NCBI RefSeq assembly: GCF_008086175.1
Contig: NZ_VSKM01000005.1
Location: 62,001 to 126,000 of the forward strand
Origin: Bizionia saleffrena
GTDB lineage: Bacteria; Bacteroidota; Bacteroidia; Flavobacteriales; Flavobacteriaceae
Reading direction: 5' to 3'
DNA length: 64,000 nucleotides
The position numbers were made by a program, and so were the translations under genes. How positions within the stretch are numbered: the stretch's first letter is position 1; each line of letters starts with the position of its first letter. The notes below the pieces were generated by a model. It did not search any database. It saw only the letters and a program-made list of their open reading frames with translations, and was not told the DNA's origin. Shown here one piece after another: positions 5,824 through 25,295 of this stretch.

Positions 5824-7167
5824 ATGCAAACCAAAATTGAAGCTTTTTTTAATTCAGTAAAAGAAAAAAACAGCAATGAAAAGGAATTTCTTCAAGCCGT
5901 TTACGAAGTAGCAGAAATTATTATTCCTTTTATAGAAGCCCATCCGAAGTATCAAAACAAAATGCTTTTAGAACGTATAGTCGAACCAGAACGAGCTATT
6001 ATTTTCAGAGTGCCTTGGCTAGACGATTCTGGAAAGGTTCAAGTAAATCGTGGGTTTAGAGTAGAGTTTAATTCTGCAATTGGGCCTTACAAAGGCGGCT
6101 TAAGATTTCATCCTTCGGTTAATCTTAGTATTTTAAAGTTTTTAGGATTTGAACAAGTGTTTAAAAATAGCTTAACGACATTGCCTTTGGGTGGTGGTAA
6201 AGGGGGTAGCGATTTTAATCCTAAAGGGAAAAGCGATAATGAAGTGATGCGTTTTTGCCAGTCGTTTATGGGAGAGTTATTTAGGCATATTGGTGCAGAT
6301 ACCGATGTTCCTGCGGGAGATATTGGCGTTGGTAGTCGCGAAATAGGCTATTTATTTGGTTATTATAAAAAAATAAAAAATGAATTTACGGGTGTTTTAA
6401 CTGGTAAAGACTTGTCTTATGGAGGTTCTTTAATTCGCCCTGAGGCTACGGGCTACGGTTGTGTGTATTTTATACAGAGTATGTTAAAGACCAAAAACGA
6501 TTCCATAAAAAATAAAAAAGTGGTTATTTCTGGATCTGGAAACGTGGCACAATATGCTTGCCAAAAAATAACAGAGTTAGGTGGTAAGGTTGTCGCGATG
6601 TCCGATTCTACTGGATATATTTATGATGAGAAGGGAATAGATGCTGAAAAGCTTCAGGTTATTATGACGATTAAAAATGAAAATAGAGGACGCATTCAAG
6701 AGTATCTGGATACTTATAAAAATGCACAGTTTTTTGAAGGCCAACGTCCTTGGGGGGTTGCGTGTGATATTGCTATTCCGTGTGCAACTCAAAATGAATT
6801 AAATAAAGGAGAAGCAGAAGAATTAGTAAAAAATAAGGTGCTGGTTGTTGCCGAAGGTGCAAATATGCCAACAACACCTAAGGCAATTGAAATTTTGCAA
6901 CAAGCAAATGTGTTATTTGCTCCGGGGAAAGCCGCGAATGCAGGAGGTGTGGCAACCTCAGGGTTAGAGATGAGCCAAAACGCATTACGATATAGCTGGA
7001 AAAAGGAAAAGGTCGATGAAAAATTACGAGAAATAATGTACCATATTCACGCCTCCTGCGAAGCTTATGGAAAGAACGATGCCGGGGAAATTGATTATGT
7101 AAAAGGAGCAAACATTGCTGGATTTGTAAAAGTTGCCGATGCGATGCTTGCTCAAGGTGTCGTTTAA
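5824..7167 (+). CDS. gdhA: NADP-type glutamate dehydrogenase
   Basis: 447 residues, the length of hexameric NADP-dependent GDH. It interconverts 2-oxoglutarate plus ammonia and glutamate. Substrate and catalytic residues are visible: Lys90 in GPYKGGLRFHP, Lys126 in PLGGGKGGSDF and Asp166 in PAGDIGVGSREIGY. The nucleotide-binding domain begins near VVISGSGNVAQYA. The conserved FAPGKAANAGGVATSGLEMSQNA loop is intact. It is a single-gene unit closed by a terminator at 7191-7222. Confidence 0.97.
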   Translation: MQTKIEAFFNSVKEKNSNEKEFLQAVYEVAEIIIPFIEAHPKYQNKMLLERIVEPERAIIFRVPWLDDSGKVQVNRGFRVEFNSAIGPYKGGLRFHPSVNLSILKFLGFEQVFKNSLTTLPLGGGKGGSDFNPKGKSDNEVMRFCQSFMGELFRHIGADTDVPAGDIGVGSREIGYLFGYYKKIKNEFTGVLTGKDLSYGGSLIRPEATGYGCVYFIQSMLKTKNDSIKNKKVVISGSGNVAQYACQKITELGGKVVAMSDSTGYIYDEKGIDAEKLQVIMTIKNENRGRIQEYLDTYKNAQFFEGQRPWGVACDIAIPCATQNELNKGEAEELVKNKVLVVAEGANMPTTPKAIEILQQANVLFAPGKAANAGGVATSGLEMSQNALRYSWKKEKVDEKLREIMYHIHASCEAYGKNDAGEIDYVKGANIAGFVKVADAMLAQGVV

Positions 7168-7190
7168 GCAAAACCTACATCGCGTAATAA

Positions 7191-7222
7191 AAAGCTCCTA
7201 CTTAGGGGCTTTATTGTTTTTT
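7191..7222 (+). terminator. Rho-independent terminator of gdhA
   Basis: AAAGCTCCT (7191-7199) pairs with AGGGGCTTT (7204-7212) over 9 bp with one G-U and a 4-base loop, followed by a T-rich tail. It lies 23 bases after the gdhA stop. Confidence 0.75.
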
Positions 7223-7227
7223 GTATA

Positions 7228-7235
7228 TACTTTTG
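7228..7235 (+). promoter_or_regulatory. Predicted -7 promoter box of porZ
   Basis: TACTTTTG matches TAnnTTTG, directly after the gdhA terminator and 40 bases before the porZ ATG. Confidence 0.55.
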
Positions 7236-7275
7236 TAATAATTAACGTTATAAAGAAATATCGAAAATTAAACAA

Positions 7276-9627
7276 ATGAAAATAAAAGCTTTATTTATAC
7301 TATTACTTTTAATTCCCGTGCTAAACTATGCTCAAGATTTTACAAATTCGTGGCAAGGGTATTTTAGTTATTTAGATATAAAAGATATTTCTCAAGGCAC
7401 AAATCGAGTGTTTGGTGCGGCAGAGAATGCCGTTTTTATTTACAATGTACAAACGCGAGAAATGGAGAAGCTATCTACCATAAACGGTTTGTCTGGGGAG
7501 CCTATTTCTACTATACAATATGATGAAGCAAGTGGCGTGTTATTAATAGGCTTCGATACTGGATTAATGCAAGTATATAGTGAATCGACTAAGAAAATTA
7601 CAACTGTTGTAGATATCTTAAATAAACCTTCCATTCCTCCGGTAGATAAAAAAATAAATCATTTTATGGTGTCTAACGGTTTTGCGTATATCGCTACAGA
7701 TTATGGTATTTCGTTATACGATATTCAAAATTTAGAATTTGGAGACACTTATTTTATAGGTTCTGGCGGAGGGCAGTTAAAAGTAAATCAAACTACTATT
7801 AACAATGGTTTTATTTACGCAGCGACAACTACAGGAATGCGAAAGGCAGATGCTTCGAGTCCTAACCTTGTGAATTTTCAAGAGTGGCAACTTATTAACG
7901 CTTTCAACTGGGTGGGTGTAGAAGCTATAAATAATACGGTGTATGCTTTGCGAAATGTAAATAAATTGTACGAACTGGTAACTACTAATTTTGTAGAGCG
8001 TGCGTCTTATAATACCGCATCTGTTCAAATTAAATCAGAAGAAAACCGATTGCAAGTTACAACTTTAAAGCAATTTTTTGTTTACGATGAAAATTTAACA
8101 TTACTAGCTTCTTCGGGAGTTATAAGCGAATTTAATACAGATTTCACTTCAGGAACCAGTGTAAACGATGCTGTTTATATCGGCACTAAAGGTGATTTTA
8201 ATAGTGGGCGTATTGGTTTCGGTATTTTAAAAGCACCTTTTGAAGCGCCTTTAGAGTATGAAGAAATCCATCCAGACAGCCCTATCTCTAATACCGCATT
8301 TGCTATTGCGGCAGCAGATAAAAACCTGTGGGTAACGTATGGAGATTATTCGGTAACCTTTAACCCTTATCCCTTAAGGCAAAGAGGTTTTAGTCATTTA
8401 AAACAAGAGTCTTGGGTGAATGTGCCGTTCGACAGTGTTTTGGGAGCAGTAAATTTGAACACGATAAATGTTAATCCTTTAAATTATAATCAGGTCTTTA
8501 TCAACTCTTTTTTGCATGGTTTATTAGAGGTTAATAACGACATCCCCGCGGTGCTGTATGGTGTTAATAATAGTAGTTTTCAATCGTCTAGTTCTGCGGG
8601 AATCGATATAAGAAATAGTGCTTCTGTAATCGATAATGACGGTGTTTTATGGTGCACAAATGCGAAAACAGCTAGTCCACTAAAATCTTTTAATATTAGT
8701 ACGGGGGTTTGGGATAGTTATAATTTTAGTGCTATTCTTCCAACTGCAAACTCCGAGTTTGGTTATAGTTCTTTGGCTGTTGATGACAACGGCGTAAAAT
8801 GGTTGGGAGGCTATAAAAAAGGAATTATTGGTTTTGATAATACAGGACCGGAAACCTTATTAAAAAGTATTTCATCTGACGATTATAATATGCCAATAGC
8901 AGCGGTGTACAGTGTGGCTGTAGATAAAAGTAATACAGTATGGATTGGTACAGGTAAAGGGCTGCGCGTAATTTATAGTGGGGCAGAGTTTTTTAGTAAT
9001 CCCAGCTTTAATGTGTCTTCAATTATTGTTCTAGATAATGGCACGCCAAGTGAATTACTATACCAGCAATTTATTACGAGTATCAATGTCGATGGCTCTA
9101 ATAATAAATGGATAGCTACTTTAGGAACCGGTGTTTATTATTTTTCATCAGACGGTCAAAAAACGATTTATCATTTTACAATGGATAATTCTCCGCTACC
9201 TTCAAATAACGTTGTCGATGTGGCTCTAGATGAGGTTAACGGAATTGTGTATATGGCCACCGATAAAGGCGTGGTTTCATTTAGAAGCGACACGTCGAAA
9301 ACCCAAGAAAGCTTAGAAGATGCTTACGTGTATCCAAATCCGGTGCGACCATCGTTTAACCTTAATCAAGAAAAAGTAAAAATAAAAGGGCTGACAGAGA
9401 ATGTAAATATAAAAATCACAGATATCGAAGGTAATTTGGTAACAGAAGCCGAATCGCAAACCAATACAAAATTTAAAGGGTATAATTTAGAGGTCGATGG
9501 CGGAACAGCCTTATGGAATGGTAAAAATTTAGCAGGTAGAACGGTGGCGTCTGGGGTGTATTTAATATTATTATCCGATTTAGATAGCTTCGAAACTAAA
9601 GTGCTAAAAGTAATGGTGGTACGTTAA
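7276..9627 (+). CDS. porZ: PorZ-type type IX secretion protein (beta-propellers plus sorting domain)
   Basis: 783 residues. A signal peptide (MKIKALFILLLLIPVLNYAQ) is followed by two beta-propeller-like regions of repeated short blades (for example VWIGTGKGLRVI, GIVYMATDKGVVSF) and, from about residue 690, a T9SS type A sorting domain beginning VYPNPVRPSFN and ending VYLILLSDLDSFETKVLKVMVVR. Length and architecture match P. gingivalis PorZ (about 776 residues), a surface component of the T9SS attachment complex that delivers anionic LPS; what it delivers in flavobacteria is less clear. The position directly before recO is the usual one in flavobacteria, from memory. The stop overlaps the recO start by one base (TAATG). 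Confidence 0.85.
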   Translation: MKIKALFILLLLIPVLNYAQDFTNSWQGYFSYLDIKDISQGTNRVFGAAENAVFIYNVQTREMEKLSTINGLSGEPISTIQYDEASGVLLIGFDTGLMQVYSESTKKITTVVDILNKPSIPPVDKKINHFMVSNGFAYIATDYGISLYDIQNLEFGDTYFIGSGGGQLKVNQTTINNGFIYAATTTGMRKADASSPNLVNFQEWQLINAFNWVGVEAINNTVYALRNVNKLYELVTTNFVERASYNTASVQIKSEENRLQVTTLKQFFVYDENLTLLASSGVISEFNTDFTSGTSVNDAVYIGTKGDFNSGRIGFGILKAPFEAPLEYEEIHPDSPISNTAFAIAAADKNLWVTYGDYSVTFNPYPLRQRGFSHLKQESWVNVPFDSVLGAVNLNTINVNPLNYNQVFINSFLHGLLEVNNDIPAVLYGVNNSSFQSSSSAGIDIRNSASVIDNDGVLWCTNAKTASPLKSFNISTGVWDSYNFSAILPTANSEFGYSSLAVDDNGVKWLGGYKKGIIGFDNTGPETLLKSISSDDYNMPIAAVYSVAVDKSNTVWIGTGKGLRVIYSGAEFFSNPSFNVSSIIVLDNGTPSELLYQQFITSINVDGSNNKWIATLGTGVYYFSSDGQKTIYHFTMDNSPLPSNNVVDVALDEVNGIVYMATDKGVVSFRSDTSKTQESLEDAYVYPNPVRPSFNLNQEKVKIKGLTENVNIKITDIEGNLVTEAESQTNTKFKGYNLEVDGGTALWNGKNLAGRTVASGVYLILLSDLDSFETKVLKVMVVR

Positions 9628-18034: not shown

Positions 18035-19129
18035 CTATTGTGATAATTTTCTGTTTTGTTTGGCTAATTCATTTCGTTCAATTTTGTGCTCAGGGCGTGT
18101 CCATTTTGGTTTTTCTCCTAAAGCTTCAATTTTAGAATCTGCTGCTTCAACTGTTTGTGGTTGCCCCTTTTTTGTAAAGGGCTTTTGGGGATTTAATCCT
18201 AAGGTTTCAAACATTTTCAGGTCTTCACTGACCTCTGGGTTGGGTGTGGTTAGTAATTTATCTCCTGCAAAAATAGAGTTTGCACCGGCAAAAAAGCATA
18301 GCGCTTGCCCTTCGCGCGTCATTTGTGTTCGTCCGGCACTTAAACGCACTTGTGTTTCTGGCATTACAATTCTAGTCGTTGCGACCATTCTAATCATATC
18401 CCAAATCTCAATAGGCTGTTGGTCTTCTAGTGGTGTGCCTTCAACAGCAACCAAAGCATTAATTGGTGTCGATTCTGGTTGCGGATTTAAAGTGGATAAA
18501 GCAACGAGCATTCCTGCCCGGTCTTCTACTTTTTCGCCCATACCAATAATACCACCAGAACATACGGTAACATTAGTTTTACGTACGTTATCTATGGTTT
18601 TTAAGCGGTCTTCGAAACCGCGAGTAGAAATAACTTTTTTATAATAGTCTTCAGACGAATCTAAGTTGTGGTTGTAGGCATATAAACCTGCTTCGGCTAA
18701 ACGCTTTGCTTGGTTTTCTGTCACCATTCCTAAGGTGCAACATACTTCCATATCTAGTTTGTTAATGGTACGAACCATTTCTAAAACTTGATCAAATTCT
18801 TCACCATCTTTAACATTTCTCCAGGCAGCCCCCATACAAACACGAGAGCTTCCTCCAGATTTTGCCCGTAAAGCTTGTGCTTTCACGTGTTGTACCGTCA
18901 TTAAGTCATTACCTTCCACATTGGTGTGGTAACGTGCCGCTTGCGGGCAATACCCGCAATCTTCAGAGCAGCCTCCGGTTTTAATAGATAATAATGTGCT
19001 TACTTGTACGGTATTCGGGTCGTGATGTAAACGGTGAATGGTGGCCGCTTCGTAAAGCAACTCCATCATAGGTTTCTTATAAATGTTTAGAATCTCTTGT
19101 GTTGTCCAATTGTGTTTTATCTCGCTCAT
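18035..19129 (-). CDS. bioB: Biotin synthase
   Basis: 364 residues. Radical-SAM enzyme that inserts sulfur into dethiobiotin. The [4Fe-4S] triad is Cys54, Cys58 and Cys61 (GGCSEDCGYCPQ), the [2Fe-2S] cluster ligands lie in CMGAAWRN and CCTLGM, and the conserved YNHNLDSS and TPINALVAVEGTPL segments follow. Other biotin genes are not in the window. The 185 bases upstream contain no TAnnTTTG box on this strand but do hold a long-range inverted repeat, so transcription may run in from the TonB receptor upstream. Confidence 0.97.
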   Translation of the reverse strand: MSEIKHNWTTQEILNIYKKPMMELLYEAATIHRLHHDPNTVQVSTLLSIKTGGCSEDCGYCPQAARYHTNVEGNDLMTVQHVKAQALRAKSGGSSRVCMGAAWRNVKDGEEFDQVLEMVRTINKLDMEVCCTLGMVTENQAKRLAEAGLYAYNHNLDSSEDYYKKVISTRGFEDRLKTIDNVRKTNVTVCSGGIIGMGEKVEDRAGMLVALSTLNPQPESTPINALVAVEGTPLEDQQPIEIWDMIRMVATTRIVMPETQVRLSAGRTQMTREGQALCFFAGANSIFAGDKLLTTPNPEVSEDLKMFETLGLNPQKPFTKKGQPQTVEAADSKIEALGEKPKWTRPEHKIERNELAKQNRKLSQ

Positions 19130-19174
19130 AGGAGTTGAAGTATGCTGAGTTTTTGTTATAAGAGAAGTTTTTGT

Positions 19175-19288
19175 ATTTTAAAAGCCCTCTTTTGCGATAG
19201 TTTTTACAGGAAGAATGTTTTCAATATTCAGGTTCAATAGCGTTGGTTTTTAAAGTCTACAGTTTCTAAAACGTTGGGGCTTTAAAAT
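19175..19288 (-). promoter_or_regulatory. Candidate structured leader upstream of bioB
   Basis: On the bioB mRNA strand, ATTTTAAAGCCC (19288-19277) can pair with GGGCTTTTAAAAT (19187-19175) as a 12-bp helix with a one-base bulge, enclosing 89 bases with smaller internal hairpins. No known riboswitch class fits. The complement is visible in the sequence; a regulatory role is inference. Confidence 0.35.
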
Positions 19289-19314
19289 TGGTGCTTCAAT
19301 TAAGAATTTATTTC

Positions 19315-21129
19315 TTATTTAAATTTATATTTTAGACCAAAGAGTAGGTTTCCTTTTGGCATAGGCACCAAGTTAGTTTCGGTATAGTCCGTATTAAAAA
19401 TGTTATTGGCAAGTATAGAAAATTCCATAGTTTTTAGTTTGTAATTTACACTAGCATCTACCACAGTATAGCTTTCCCCAGAAGTTCTTTCGGCATATTT
19501 ATAAATAATATTTTGAGAAAGGTTTTTTAGAAACTGCGTTTGTAAACCTGCTGTTGCGTGGTGTTTTAAGGAATTGATAGAATATTTAGAAAAGTTGCTT
19601 ACTTCTTTTAAATTATCTTTTAAAAAGGTGTAACCCCCTTTAATATTTTGGTTGAAACCTCCAAGTGTAAAACCATAAGTAGTATTAAATTCAACGCCTT
19701 TTGTGTTTAAATCCCTAATATTGGTGGCTACCCATAAATCGGTTTCGTTTTCCTTAACATAGTCTATTAATTTTTTAGAATCTCTATTAAAAAGAGCAAG
19801 TGAAGCGTTGAATCTTCCGGTGTTGAATTTTAACCCTAATTCTTCAGCAATAGCTTCTTCTGGATCTAAATCTTCGTTCCCTAATGTGGTAGGATCACTA
19901 TAATATAAATCGGTGTAAGTTGGAATTCTATAGGTATAACCAATGTTTCCGTAGATTTTTAAATCGTCATTTAATTTATAACCTAAATCTAAACCTGGGA
20001 AGGCGTGGAATTTAAAATCAGAAAAATAGTTGACGGCAACCCCAGGAGTAATATCTAATTTATTATTTAATAGCTTGAATCGGTGTTCTAAAAACAGCGT
20101 TGTTGTAAACCGGTTTCTATCTCCTAAATTATTACTTGATAAATACACTTTTGCGACATCCACACCAAAACCGGTAACCCCCATTTTAGAGGTATACGAA
20201 GCATTTACGGCAGCACCTACGTTATTAGTTTGATGTAGGTTTCTATATATGGAAGGATTTTCTCTTACAAAAACGTAGGTGTCTTGATTTCTTCTCCAAT
20301 ATAGTTTTGGTTTTAGAGTTAGTTTTTCGGTTCTTATTTCAGTCGAAACCCCTACTAAACTCGCTTGGGTTTCTTGGTATTGATTAATAGCAGAGGGGCT
20401 TGAATAGAATCCGTTGGCACCAAATTTCCTTTCTTGAAATGAAGCGATCACGTCAATAGGTGTATTTTTTGTGTTAAAGGAACTTTTAATAAAATAATTC
20501 TGATTGTCATATTCTGTGTTATATCTGTAACCTTCGGAAGTGTTTCTAGAAACCTGCACAATATGTGAGGAGTTTTCATACTGACTAGCCACTAAAACAG
20601 AGCCGTGAAGCTGACCATAAGAACCCGCTTGAGCGTTTATCGACACTTGATCTCCTGTATTCTTTATGGTGACAATATTTACGGCTCCTGTAAAAGCGTT
20701 TTGTCCAAAAACTCTAGCGGCAGGGCCTTTAATGATTTCTATGCGCTCAATAAGTTCTATGGGTAAAGCCATATTTAAAGTGTGATGTCCTGTTTGTGCA
20801 TCATCTACTTTTATACCGTCTATTAATAACAACGTTTGGTCGAAACCACCACCACGAATGTATAAATCTGCTTGCATACCGCTAGCGCCTCTTCGTCTTA
20901 CATCTACTCCTGCAAATTGTTGTAATAAATCGGCAACATTGTTTGTTGCACTTTTTTTTATATCGTCTTTAGTAATTACTGTAATGGTTCTAGAGTTTTC
21001 TGAAAACGGTAAATCAATTCGTGTAGAGGTAATAATTACCGAGTCTAAAACGTGTTCAAGTTCTAAATTCTGTGCTTGTGTTGCCATAGACAAGAGGACA
21101 AGCAAAATAAATAAAGGGGTAAATTTCAT
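19315..21129 (-). CDS. BtuB-like TonB-dependent receptor
   Basis: 604 residues, the size of the compact BtuB/cobalamin-receptor group and without the carboxypeptidase-like domain. Signal peptide ends LLSMATQAQ; the plug (about 35-155) has the TonB-box-like DSVIITSTRI, VADLLQQFAGVDVRRRG, YIRGGGFDQTLLLIDGIKV and IKGPAARVFGQNAFTGAVNIVT; the barrel has YRIPTYTDLYY and ends NLLFGLKYKFK. No cobalamin riboswitch is visible. It lies directly upstream of bioB on the same strand and divergent from a MocR-type regulator, so its cargo may be a cofactor or precursor; this is inference. Confidence 0.88.
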   Translation of the reverse strand: MKFTPLFILLVLLSMATQAQNLELEHVLDSVIITSTRIDLPFSENSRTITVITKDDIKKSATNNVADLLQQFAGVDVRRRGASGMQADLYIRGGGFDQTLLLIDGIKVDDAQTGHHTLNMALPIELIERIEIIKGPAARVFGQNAFTGAVNIVTIKNTGDQVSINAQAGSYGQLHGSVLVASQYENSSHIVQVSRNTSEGYRYNTEYDNQNYFIKSSFNTKNTPIDVIASFQERKFGANGFYSSPSAINQYQETQASLVGVSTEIRTEKLTLKPKLYWRRNQDTYVFVRENPSIYRNLHQTNNVGAAVNASYTSKMGVTGFGVDVAKVYLSSNNLGDRNRFTTTLFLEHRFKLLNNKLDITPGVAVNYFSDFKFHAFPGLDLGYKLNDDLKIYGNIGYTYRIPTYTDLYYSDPTTLGNEDLDPEEAIAEELGLKFNTGRFNASLALFNRDSKKLIDYVKENETDLWVATNIRDLNTKGVEFNTTYGFTLGGFNQNIKGGYTFLKDNLKEVSNFSKYSINSLKHHATAGLQTQFLKNLSQNIIYKYAERTSGESYTVVDASVNYKLKTMEFSILANNIFNTDYTETNLVPMPKGNLLFGLKYKFK

Positions 21130-21167: not shown

Positions 21168-21177
21168 GTAACTTTCC

Positions 21178-21195
21178 GGATCACTAAAGTAGTCC
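21178..21195. promoter_or_regulatory. Operator-like dyad between receptor and MocR-type gene
   Basis: GGATCACTAAAGTAGTCC is an imperfect 18-base palindrome (12 of 18 positions symmetric, including GGA...TCC and CT..AG). It lies just upstream of the receptor -7 box and 12 bases before the regulator's ATG, a natural site for the regulator to control both genes. Confidence 0.35.
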
Positions 21196-21207
21196 AGTTC
21201 TAAAACA

Positions 21208-22707
21208 ATGAATAGTCCGGTTAATGATATGCTGAAAGCACTAATATATTTTGAAAAGTCGCCAAGCACTTCAATTTATATTCAAATAGCCCAACAAATT
21301 ATCAATGCCATACAGCGTGGTTATTTACCCGAAGGTACAGTGTTACCAGGGACGAGAAAATTTAGTGCTCTACTTTCTATAAATAGAAACACAGCAGTTG
21401 CGGTCTATGAAGAACTTGCATCGCAAGGCTGGGTAGATGTTATAGCCAACAAAGGGACTTTTGTTTTAAAACCAGAAAAGAAAACAGCAGCTATAAAAGG
21501 GGCGTCGCAAGGTTTAGATAAACTAAATGCGTACCCAAAAACAGCAGGATTTCCGTTTGAGCCCTCTATTAATTTGGCGTCTACTGAAGAATTTTCAGTA
21601 TGTAAATATGTGATTAACGATGGCCAGCCCGATTTAAGACTCCATCCTACACATCAATTTTCACGATGGTACAGTGCGTCGATGAAACGCGCCTCATTAA
21701 TTTCTAAATGGAATCAGAGACAAGAGCAATCGTATACCACTTTTAGTACAGCGTTATGTAATTATTTAAATGCTACGCGCGGTTTTCATATAAAGCCGTA
21801 TAATATTGTAAGTACTCGAAGTACAGAGATGAGTTTATACATCGTGTCGCAGCTTCTCATACAAAAGAATGATGTTGTACTTGTTGGTCATTTAAGTCAT
21901 TACAAATCTAATATGATTTTTCAACAAGCGGGAGCCAATATCATAACCATTCCAGTGGATACGCAGGGTATTGATGTTGATTTTATTGAACAGAACTTTA
22001 CAAAACAGAGTATACGTTGTGTGTATGTATGTGCTCACAGGCAATATCCTACAACTGTCACACTTTCAGCCGAAAGGCGATTAAAATTATTGAAACTAGC
22101 GAAATCCTACGGTTTTGCCATAATAGAAGATGATTTCGATTACGACTTTCAGTTTGATGGTTCTGCTATGGTACCAATGGCGAGTGCCGACGGTCAGGGT
22201 GTTGTTATTTATCTAGGCAGGTTGGGACAGTCTTTTTTTCCTAGTTTTCAAATAGGGTTTGTAGTGGCGCCAGAAAACATTATTAAGGAAGCCAAAAACT
22301 ATTTACAAATACTGGATAAACAAGGCGATTTAATTCAGAAGCAAATACTTAAAGAGCTTATTTCTGAAGGTGAAATACATCGATTAATTAAAAAAAACAG
22401 TACGGTGTATAAGCAAAGACGCGATCTTTTGTGTGCCTGTTTACAGAGGCATTTTAACGCACACGCAACTTGGCAAGTGCCTGTAGGAGGTTTAGCTGTT
22501 TGGTTGTGTTTTGAACCTACAATATCACTTATTAAATTGGCAGAAACAACAAAAAAAAACAACTTGTTTTTACCTAAAACGATACTGTACCAAAATAGAG
22601 ATATTTGTGCAATACGACTGGGGTTTGGTCATTTAAACATAGATGAGATGGAAACCGTTATTAAAATTTTAAAGACCTCCTTTGATGAGGTCTTACAACA
22701 GATTTAA
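21208..22707 (+). CDS. MocR/PdxR-type GntR regulator lacking the PLP lysine
   Basis: 499 residues: a GntR winged-helix domain (about 15-90; IYIQIAQQIINAIQRGYLPEGT, RNTAVAVYEELASQGWV) joined to a fold-type I aminotransferase domain (about 125-495). In most MocR proteins the domain binds PLP as a Schiff base to Lys in a G-S-F-S-K-T motif followed by R-I-G. Here that segment reads GRLGQSFFPSFQIGF, so the lysine is Gln341 and the phosphate-contacting arginine is Gln348; the usual EDDYD is EDDFD (Phe310). The protein probably does not bind PLP covalently. It is divergent from the BtuB-like receptor. Confidence 0.88.
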   Translation: MNSPVNDMLKALIYFEKSPSTSIYIQIAQQIINAIQRGYLPEGTVLPGTRKFSALLSINRNTAVAVYEELASQGWVDVIANKGTFVLKPEKKTAAIKGASQGLDKLNAYPKTAGFPFEPSINLASTEEFSVCKYVINDGQPDLRLHPTHQFSRWYSASMKRASLISKWNQRQEQSYTTFSTALCNYLNATRGFHIKPYNIVSTRSTEMSLYIVSQLLIQKNDVVLVGHLSHYKSNMIFQQAGANIITIPVDTQGIDVDFIEQNFTKQSIRCVYVCAHRQYPTTVTLSAERRLKLLKLAKSYGFAIIEDDFDYDFQFDGSAMVPMASADGQGVVIYLGRLGQSFFPSFQIGFVVAPENIIKEAKNYLQILDKQGDLIQKQILKELISEGEIHRLIKKNSTVYKQRRDLLCACLQRHFNAHATWQVPVGGLAVWLCFEPTISLIKLAETTKKNNLFLPKTILYQNRDICAIRLGFGHLNIDEMETVIKILKTSFDEVLQQI

Positions 22708-22716
22708 AATAGGTGT

Positions 22717-23130
22717 TCATTTTAAATCGAATTCTGTGTTACAATCTTCACACCTATATTTATGTTTGGTGTAAAATGGAAGGGCTCCAAATAAAAATCC
22801 AAAAATGAAATAGAAAAAGGATTTGGCGTCTTTAATAGTCGAAAATAATTCAATATGCCCCCCTTTACAATTGGGACATACAATAGTGTCGCCCTCGTCG
22901 TCTATAGAATATTTACATATCGTTTCTAAAATATGTTGCGCCTCGAGTGCTTGCGTGGCGTACACTTTAAGTTTAACACCACCAATAGCGTTACTTACTA
23001 GAGGGTCGGTGTCGATAGTTAAACTGTCACTTAAAAATACTTGAATGCCTTCATATTCCAGTCTACCCTTAATAATTTGGGCTTCCGAGGAGTATTGAAA
23101 ACGTGCTATAGTTTTAAAAAGATCACTCAT
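22717..23130 (-). CDS. DUF2007 protein with membrane segment and zinc ribbon
   Basis: 137 residues from the ATG at 23130. The longer reading to 23184 overlaps the predicted promoter at 23182-23189 and begins with non-conserved residues. The N-terminal half is a DUF2007 (putative signal-transducing) domain (KTIARFQYSSEAQIIKGRLEYEGIQVFLSD). The C-terminal half holds a CPNC...CEDC zinc ribbon interrupted by one hydrophobic helix (FFYFIFGFLFGALPFY). Function is unknown. It converges with the regulator gene. Confidence 0.8.
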   Translation of the reverse strand: MSDLFKTIARFQYSSEAQIIKGRLEYEGIQVFLSDSLTIDTDPLVSNAIGGVKLKVYATQALEAQHILETICKYSIDDEGDTIVCPNCKGGHIELFSTIKDAKSFFYFIFGFLFGALPFYTKHKYRCEDCNTEFDLK

Positions 23131-23181
23131 AATAGATTGTATTTTAGTCTTGTAACACGCTGATTTAGAAAGGTTACTTTG

Positions 23182-23189
23182 CAAAGGTA
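23182..23189 (-). promoter_or_regulatory. Predicted -7 promoter box of the DUF2007 gene
   Basis: TACCTTTG on the minus strand, 51 bases before the ATG at 23130. It supports that start over the one at 23184. Confidence 0.55.
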
Positions 23190-24854: not shown

Positions 24855-25295
24855 ATGATTGTACACAAATCACAATACCTTACTTTTTATGCTCCAGAAC
24901 ATATTGATGGTCACGGTGCTCATTTTGTAGAGACTGGTATTTCCGCGGGTTTCCCGTCGGTGGCAGATGAGTTTGTTGAGAATAGATTATCTCTAGACGA
25001 TACGCTTGTTAAAAACAAAGAAACCACTTTCTATGCAAAGGTTAGTGGCCAATCTATGGTTGGTGCTGGATTAGACGATAACGATTTGTTGGTTATAGAC
25101 CGTAGTTTACAGCCCGAAAACAATAAAATTGCGGTATGTTTTCTCGATGGAGAGTTTACGGTAAAGCGTTTGCGTGTAGATAGAGGAGAGGTGTGGTTAC
25201 AACCAGAAAATCCTAACTATCCCATTATTAAAATTACAGACGATAACGATTTTGTGATTTGGGGAATAGTGACTAATGTAATAAAAAAGGTGTAA
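24855..25295 (+). CDS. umuD: UmuD-like S24 peptidase, without an adjacent umuC
   Basis: 146 residues aligning end to end with UmuD: cleavage site Ala31-Gly32 in SAGFPSVADEFVENRL, nucleophile Ser67 in KVSGQSMVGAG and base Lys104 in EFTVKRLRV. UmuD is self-cleaved on RecA filaments and then works with the UmuC polymerase in translesion synthesis. No umuC follows: the gene ends at a strong terminator 31 bases on. The ATG at 24855 gives the usual-length N-terminal arm. Confidence 0.9.
   Translation: MIVHKSQYLTFYAPEHIDGHGAHFVETGISAGFPSVADEFVENRLSLDDTLVKNKETTFYAKVSGQSMVGAGLDDNDLLVIDRSLQPENNKIAVCFLDGEFTVKRLRVDRGEVWLQPENPNYPIIKITDDNDFVIWGIVTNVIKKV

Follow-up and report, generated by a model that had tools for sequence, protein, structure and literature searches.

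We found that the MocR-type regulator encoded in the window, the whole 64-kb stretch of Bizionia saleffrena DNA analysed here, belongs to a clade of 31 proteins that carry glutamine in place of the pyridoxal phosphate (PLP)-binding lysine and that lie beside a TonB-dependent receptor gene instead of a biotin operon. Our main reading, to which we give a probability of roughly 60%, is that a BioL-type repressor moved from the control of biotin synthesis to that of biotin salvage and gave up covalent PLP. The pattern suggests that the regulator of this clade (the Gln clade) may now sense vitamin supply in a different way. MocRs are described as PLP-dependent, and here a natural, conserved clade is without the lysine; in the open-access literature searched, we found no report of such a natural clade or of a TonB-linked BioL.

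The window regulator has a complete MocR architecture with glutamine at the PLP lysine position

The regulator gene (21208..22707, + strand, ATG start) encodes 499 amino acids. An earlier note on this DNA had described its GntR-aminotransferase architecture as complete, and this was borne out. The N-terminal GntR winged-helix DNA-binding domain (residues 24-86, 21277..21465, + strand) scored 37.0 bits in Pfam against a cut-off of 27, and the Aminotran_1_2 domain (residues 150-436, 21655..22515, + strand) scored 44.3 bits against 19.7, with the C-terminal aminotransferase-like fold running past the Pfam match to about residue 498. The GntR domain includes R50, which was invariant across 52 aligned MocRs. 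The predicted fold was intact: the AlphaFold2 model (mean pLDDT 86.7, pTM 0.74) had GabR and PdxR (4n0b, 7zpa) as its top Foldseek matches, and VIA-align gave Z values of 36-40 against aminotransferases and GabR. Against the PdxR model NF052282 the regulator reached 279.8 bits, under the curated cut-off of 320, and one lysine-bearing BioL likewise stayed below it (318.3 bits).

The earlier note had also read glutamines at the Schiff-base lysine and at the arginine that follows it, and both readings held. EDDFD begins at residue 307 and GRLGQSFFPSFQIG at residue 337, which gives Phe310, Gln341 and Gln348, and when HMMER aligned the protein with Bacillus clausii PdxR (7pq9), Q341 fell opposite the Lys in GAFSKSL and Q348 opposite the Arg in PSVRI. 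Gln341 (codon CAG, 22228..22230, + strand) occupies the Schiff-base position, Lys340 of BioL, and this column was Gln in 31/31 clade members and Lys in 84 BioL-type loci that had been picked for having Lys. Gln348 (codon CAA, 22249..22251, + strand), at the position of the phosphate-binding Arg, was Gln in 28 and His in 3 of the 31. A different conserved lysine at the Schiff-base position, which would have spoken against the note, was absent from the 31-member alignment, where the closest conserved basic residue is 338, three upstream (Arg in the window). The change from EDDYD to EDDFD, counted there as a third cofactor-contact substitution of a possible clade, is present at Phe310 (22135..22137, + strand) but is ordinary variation, with Tyr in 20 and Phe in 11 of the 31; the lysine and arginine changes mark the clade, and the Tyr-to-Phe change does not. 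Schiff-base lysine conservation across all MocR clusters is described in PMC6677901.

Other pocket positions also set the Gln clade apart from BioL. Residue 338 (Arg338, codon AGG, 22219..22221, + strand) was basic throughout the clade (K in 24 and R in 7 of 31), a position at which lysine-bearing BioLs carry S, A or T (70, 13 and 1 of 84), and residue 278 (Arg278, 22039..22041, + strand) was R in 31/31 clade members against H in 80/84 of those BioLs. Arg470 (22615..22617, + strand), presumably the carboxylate-binding Arg of the fold as in GabR, was kept in 31/31 clade members and 84/84 lysine-bearing BioLs. We assumed the pocket roles of 338, 348 and 470 by analogy with aspartate aminotransferase and GabR. 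D308 was retained in 30/31 and Y280 in 31/31 clade members, and residue 232 was Tyr or Phe in 31/31; the roles assigned to these three and to residue 278 follow the description in PMC6677901, and by that description D308 would touch the PLP ring nitrogen. With K/R338 and R278 gained and D308, Y280 and R470 retained, the cavity looks re-tooled, not emptied or eroded, so a different ligand, or one held non-covalently, seems more likely than none at all.

Three close pairs within the Gln clade gave dN of 0.08-0.095 against dS of 1.1-1.8 (near saturation), substitution rates which indicate that the regulator sequence is under purifying selection. Since two changes are fixed in the clade, the predicted fold is intact and selection is purifying, covalent PLP is very unlikely; the chemistry and the engineered Lys302His form of EnuR, which holds no PLP as described in PMC8739950, point the same way. 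The suggestion of the earlier note, that the protein senses a different ligand or none rather than PLP, was thus upheld as regards covalent PLP, but "none" seems the less likely half of it. That the gene is a decaying relic with neutral substitutions can be given hardly any weight: one distant TonB-linked relative (G022; L046/L075) does have a visibly altered cofactor region, but the clade comprises 31 full-length ORFs with Gln341 in 31/31 and the operator described below in 30/31, and dN is about 0.09 against dS above 1.1.

PLP (or PMP) might instead still be bound non-covalently, with the new basic residues 338 and 278 as phosphate contacts and the ring held by D308 and aromatic residue 232, so that the protein would sense PLP or a PLP adduct. 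The retention of D308 in 30/31 leaves room for this, and Y280, Tyr/Phe232 and K/R338 with R278, each in 31/31, fit it as well. We nevertheless consider it unlikely, since both main anchors were lost together, EnuR Lys302His holds no PLP, and the genomic context is one of biotin, not of B6.

The Gln clade is nested within BioL

A family-level search covered 199 genomes, 65 of which had a match at E<=1e-10, and the 27 genomes (including Bizionia saleffrena) at >=63% identity all had Gln at the Lys position. Four members added from an order-level search brought the Gln clade to 31; that search matched 68 genomes, of which 20 regions in 20 genomes were examined together with G000, G032, G159, G164 and G044. 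BioL homologues were scanned as the best 80 of 533, including named Elizabethkingia and Chryseobacterium loci. In the regulator tree (70 rows, from an alignment retaining the Lys and Arg columns), the Gln clade formed 31 rows with support of 100/100, inside a BioL clade of 65 rows (100/100) that also contains the named Elizabethkingia, Chryseobacterium and Sphingobacterium members.

The sister of the Gln clade was a pair of Lys/Arg-retaining, TonB-linked homologues from Sphingobacterium lumbrici (L213) and S. alkalisoli (L215), at 5995-7482 (union 100/99), which survive as a transitional form between BioL beside the bio operon and the Gln clade. A homologue on a long branch (L075, from G022) was placed between the Gln clade and this pair, and the position of Elizabethkingia beside the Gln clade (84/93) is not firm. 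Within the Gln clade, G122 branched first. The whole tree requires a minimum of 7 changes of the letter at the lysine position, 5 of the state intact or lost, and 8 of the linkage.

Three named relatives, from Elizabethkingia occulta (L178), Elizabethkingia sp. YR214 (L184) and Chryseobacterium indologenes (L176), have their lysine at residue 340, as BioL does, and are encoded divergently from bioE-F-D-B-A; they are 46-47% identical to the window protein, which has no lysine there. Judged through the Elizabethkingia, Chryseobacterium and Sphingobacterium homologues rather than the E. meningoseptica protein itself, the window regulator descends, by its sequence, from BioL. A PdxR-like role in B6 regulation was considered and rejected: lysine-bearing MocRs beside a candidate "pdxO" formed a separate group of 32-34% identity without the operator. 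This "pdxO" is a 218-246-aa gene whose name we borrowed from the description of PdxW in PMC5320631, a paper in the main text of which the word biotin is absent. In a Chitinophaga MAG (L186, 2634-9027), three MocR genes occur within 7 kb, the middle one being a BioL beside bioE and bioB.

The regulator gene adjoins a conserved three-site operator-like region

The 78-bp gap between the receptor and regulator genes is strongly conserved. Conservation here, not comparison with published EMSA probes, defined three predicted operator sites: site 1, an inverted half site CCGGA (21176..21180); site 2, a direct half site AGTCCAG (21191..21197); and site 3, AGTCCGG (21214..21220), within regulator codons 3-5 and 23 bp from site 2. 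The 23-bp spacing of sites 2 and 3 was kept in 29/30 genomes with both sites, despite a shifting predicted start codon. Codons 3-5 read AGTCCGGTT in 29/31 clade members, where codon frequencies (0.243, 0.242 and 0.36 in the remainder of these genes) would lead one to expect about 0.02.

At the promoter of the regulator itself, the three sites with a site 2-site 3 spacing of 23/24 bp were found in 30/31 Gln-clade members, 70/84 lysine-bearing BioLs and 8/13 other BioL-type proteins that had lost the lysine or arginine, positive counts that are partly fitted because the initial pattern (24/31, 67/84 and 4/13) was rebuilt on this spacing after its misses had been inspected. The complete operator occurred in 0/13 outgroup MocRs, one of which had site 3 alone. 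Since BioL and the Gln clade share the three-site layout, DNA specificity and autoregulation appear common to both.

Receptor orthologues from 20 genomes (L239-L258, drawn from 75 genomes with a receptor match) were without the regulator in the stretch examined and without the operator, with half sites in 0/20 of their 260-bp upstream regions; as a positive control, the same half-site pattern found 31/31 clade loci. As in the window, recX or a cupin gene is close by at 16 of these 20 receptor-only loci; four of the 20 come from genomes of 1.4-1.9 Mb.

Across the Bizionia saleffrena genome, CCGGAN{9,11}AGTCC had 3 matches, 2 of them inside ORFs and the sole intergenic one between regulator and receptor, and the reversed control pattern had 2; a wider regulon was rejected on these counts. 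A looser three-site pattern occurred once in the window. A separate operator for bioB was likewise rejected, as no half site lay in the 220 bp upstream of it in the window, and so was a conserved TAnnTTTG motif on the receptor strand, which we take to be the -7 element of Bacteroidetes promoters and which was present in only 4/31.

Genome G451 splits these genes: bioB accompanies a lysine-bearing BioL on one contig, and bioE-F-D-A occupy another. Before bioE, hence on a contig other than that of bioL, the looser pattern detected the three-site layout with 23-bp spacing, a site which the stricter patterns missed. At the level of sequence, this predicted site is an independent confirmation of the operator. 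The looser pattern also gave two presumably chance matches in L178; it revealed no operator in the bio operon of either G122 or G155, where the stricter patterns had given one loose match, inside bioA of G155.

The regulator adjoins a putative biotin or desthiobiotin receptor gene

The divergent gene (19315..21129, - strand) encodes a BtuB-like TonB-dependent receptor which we propose to take up biotin or desthiobiotin. It is followed on the same strand by bioB, identified by profile as biotin synthase (18035..19129, - strand). In 31/31 clade members, a TonB gene was the nearest, divergent neighbour of the regulator, and in 8 of the first 27 clade genomes, the window included, bioB came directly after the receptor. 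bioB was present in 9/27 clade genomes searched (E<=1e-60) and in a 28th, G484; because it was missing from 18/27, it is not an obligatory target.

That the regulator governs import of a different vitamin, such as cobalamin, by way of the BtuB-like receptor is quite improbable. Among NCBIfam models, TonB-B12 (TIGR01779) does fit the receptor best, but at 167.7 bits it stays far under the cut-off of 599.7; moreover, both the regulator and its operator belong to the BioL type, the receptor gene precedes bioB in the 8/27 genomes just mentioned, and BioL-type regulators adjoin similar receptors (42-52% identity) in other lineages.

Biotin synthesis genes bear on the signal. BioL of Elizabethkingia meningoseptica is described in PMC12915131 as a MocR repressor of bioEFD and bioBA, and the introduction of that paper states that it senses 8-amino-7-oxononanoate (AON, or KAPA). 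bioF (E<=1e-60) and bioA (E<=1e-50) were present in 2/31 clade genomes (G155 and G122) and were not found, at these thresholds, in the Bizionia saleffrena genome or in 29/31 clade genomes overall. The aminoketone reported as the BioL signal is thus probably not made in those 29, and AON sensing by the clade is unlikely. The control of de novo synthesis that characterizes BioL was not seen in Bizionia saleffrena either: bioF and bioA were not found, and the only intergenic operator match is that between regulator and receptor.

Since it encodes a biotin ligase, Bizionia saleffrena can be presumed to need biotin, which, with bioF and bioA not found, probably comes from outside or from desthiobiotin through BioB. 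This ligase, BirA, is 243 aa long and starts with the ligase domain, without a DNA-binding domain. BioY was found in 0/32 genomes, the control search being positive in 9/14. PMC9561691 describes experiments showing that other marine bacteria can escape auxotrophy by using desthiobiotin via BioB; there the route of desthiobiotin uptake is termed unknown, and the vast majority of Flavobacteriia are said to carry the last four biotin genes, a majority against which the Gln clade (as Flavobacteriaceae) is atypical. In this genome, where searches for bioF and bioA were negative at the thresholds given above, window positions 18035-21129, with bioB beside a TonB receptor gene, are likely a desthiobiotin-salvage locus.

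Retention of the lysine and arginine largely follows gene linkage

Among 128 BioL-clade loci, regulators linked to bio genes (bioE, bioF or bioB among the three nearest upstream features) kept both Lys and Arg in 80/81 cases, and TonB-linked ones in 3/42; the other 5/128 had other or cut-off neighbours. This table is to be read as a pattern, not as a significance test, because the loci are non-independent (mostly one clade or one genus), at least two genomes were counted twice (L140/L165 and L154/L175), so that 80/81 stands for 78/79 genomes at most, and the 84 intact BioLs were chosen for having Lys and Arg. Lys and Arg were intact in the TonB-linked loci L213, L215 and L220, and a Chryseobacterium MAG (L195) had Lys replaced by Arg beside a complete bio operon. 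Other TonB-linked lineages showed Lys-to-Arg or Arg-to-Ser/Gly changes. Arg at the lysine position was seen in several lineages (L141, L142, L147, L148, L149, L153, L221, L231 and L195); of these nine BioL-type loci, five are TonB-linked and one is bio-linked.

A strict form of the explanation, in which loss of AON synthesis caused loss of the lysine, was rejected, as G122 has bioF, bioA, bioD and bioB yet carries Gln341. Because G122 is the first branch of the clade and combines these genes with the Gln form, loss of the lysine may predate that of the pathway, and the new target may be of greater weight than the missing pathway.

A proposed mechanism for biotin salvage control

We propose that a dimer of the regulator would bind the three-half-site operator between its own gene and the divergent receptor gene, and would repress the receptor, with bioB next in the window, as well as itself; this DNA binding and repression are suggested by BioL and by the position of the operator. 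AON, the BioL signal, could react with PLP via its amine. In the Gln clade, the genes for AON are not found or lie outside the presumed regulon, and neither the PLP lysine nor the phosphate arginine remains. The cavity, with two new basic residues and the distal Arg470 kept, would now bind a non-amine ligand reporting biotin status without a Schiff base, candidates being biotin, desthiobiotin or biotinyl-AMP. Biotin and desthiobiotin, unlike the amine AON, have no primary amine, so nothing would be gained from PLP. The specific version of this, in which the former PLP cavity became a direct, cofactor-free sensor of one of these three compounds and 338, 278 and Arg470 bind its acidic ends, is more tentative, and we put it at somewhat below even odds.

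BioL K340A is derepressed about 4-fold, compared with about 40- and 13-fold for the deletion (PMC12915131), so some repression survives without the lysine. The regulator might therefore repress constitutively, with no ligand, and merely hold both the receptor and itself at a low basal level; EnuR Lys302His is a constitutive repressor in the account of PMC8739950. However, the entire aminotransferase fold is under apparent purifying selection and the clade has its own invariant residues, and we regard constitutive repression as improbable. Salvage control through a ligand bound without a Schiff base remains our preferred reading.

The window regulator shares with BioL of Elizabethkingia and Chryseobacterium the architecture, R50, the three-site operator at its own promoter, a genome whose BirA is without a DNA-binding domain and, for the Elizabethkingia and C. 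indologenes homologues, 46-47% identity; it differs in the window by Gln for Lys340 and for the following Arg and, across the clade, by adjoining a TonB receptor gene (with bioB in some genomes) and not bioE-F-D-B-A, with bioF and bioA not found in 29/31. PdxR of Bacillus clausii and GabR of Bacillus subtilis have the same MocR fold and ranked among the best matches by sequence (7pq9) and structure (4n0b, 7zpa), but they have the PLP lysine and other regulons. BirA is a bifunctional biotin ligase and repressor. The proposed role would resemble that of BirA in coupling biotin status to biotin genes, but the folds are unrelated, and BirA of Bizionia saleffrena is a ligase only.

Lysine mutants of three MocRs (BioL K340A, EnuR K302H and MpaR K314A) are described as disturbed in function. 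According to PMC12915131, Lys340 is needed for full BioL repression, K340A also leads to biotin auxotrophy, and R50 is needed too. EnuR Lys302His, described in PMC8739950 as a constitutive repressor, is likewise a MocR without the PLP lysine that still represses; unlike this laboratory mutant, in which induction is lost, the Gln form occurs in nature throughout a clade, together with new basic residues.

If the cofactor site has indeed become the ligand site, this would be the first natural MocR clade working without PLP, within the literature searched, and a biotin-responsive repressor distinct from BirA. The question opened is how a cofactor-dependent sensor turns cofactor-free when the sensed metabolite leaves its regulon. 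It can be approached by direct experiment through the lysine-bearing sister group (L213, L215), whose operator is similar and which likewise adjoins a TonB receptor gene. The analysis also points to genes that may form a regulon for biotin or desthiobiotin salvage, and to an outer-membrane receptor that may serve it.

Other genes near these loci

Further genes recurred near these loci. A DUF2007-like gene (weak match, under the cut-off) is often near the regulator, as at 22717-23184 in the window and 15908-16288 in L065, and in G155 a relative of it lies between bioF and bioD. A beta-ketoacyl-synthase-like gene, which may serve pimelate synthesis, adjoins bioA in four genomes (L065 12859-14013, L259 6884-8041, L260 and L261). 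The window also contains a 146-aa ORF (24855-25295) that looks, to our eye, like UmuD. In L050, L055 and L057, a UmuC-like ORF of 418-419 aa adjoins the UmuD-like ORF, and it is absent from that place in the window and in L048.
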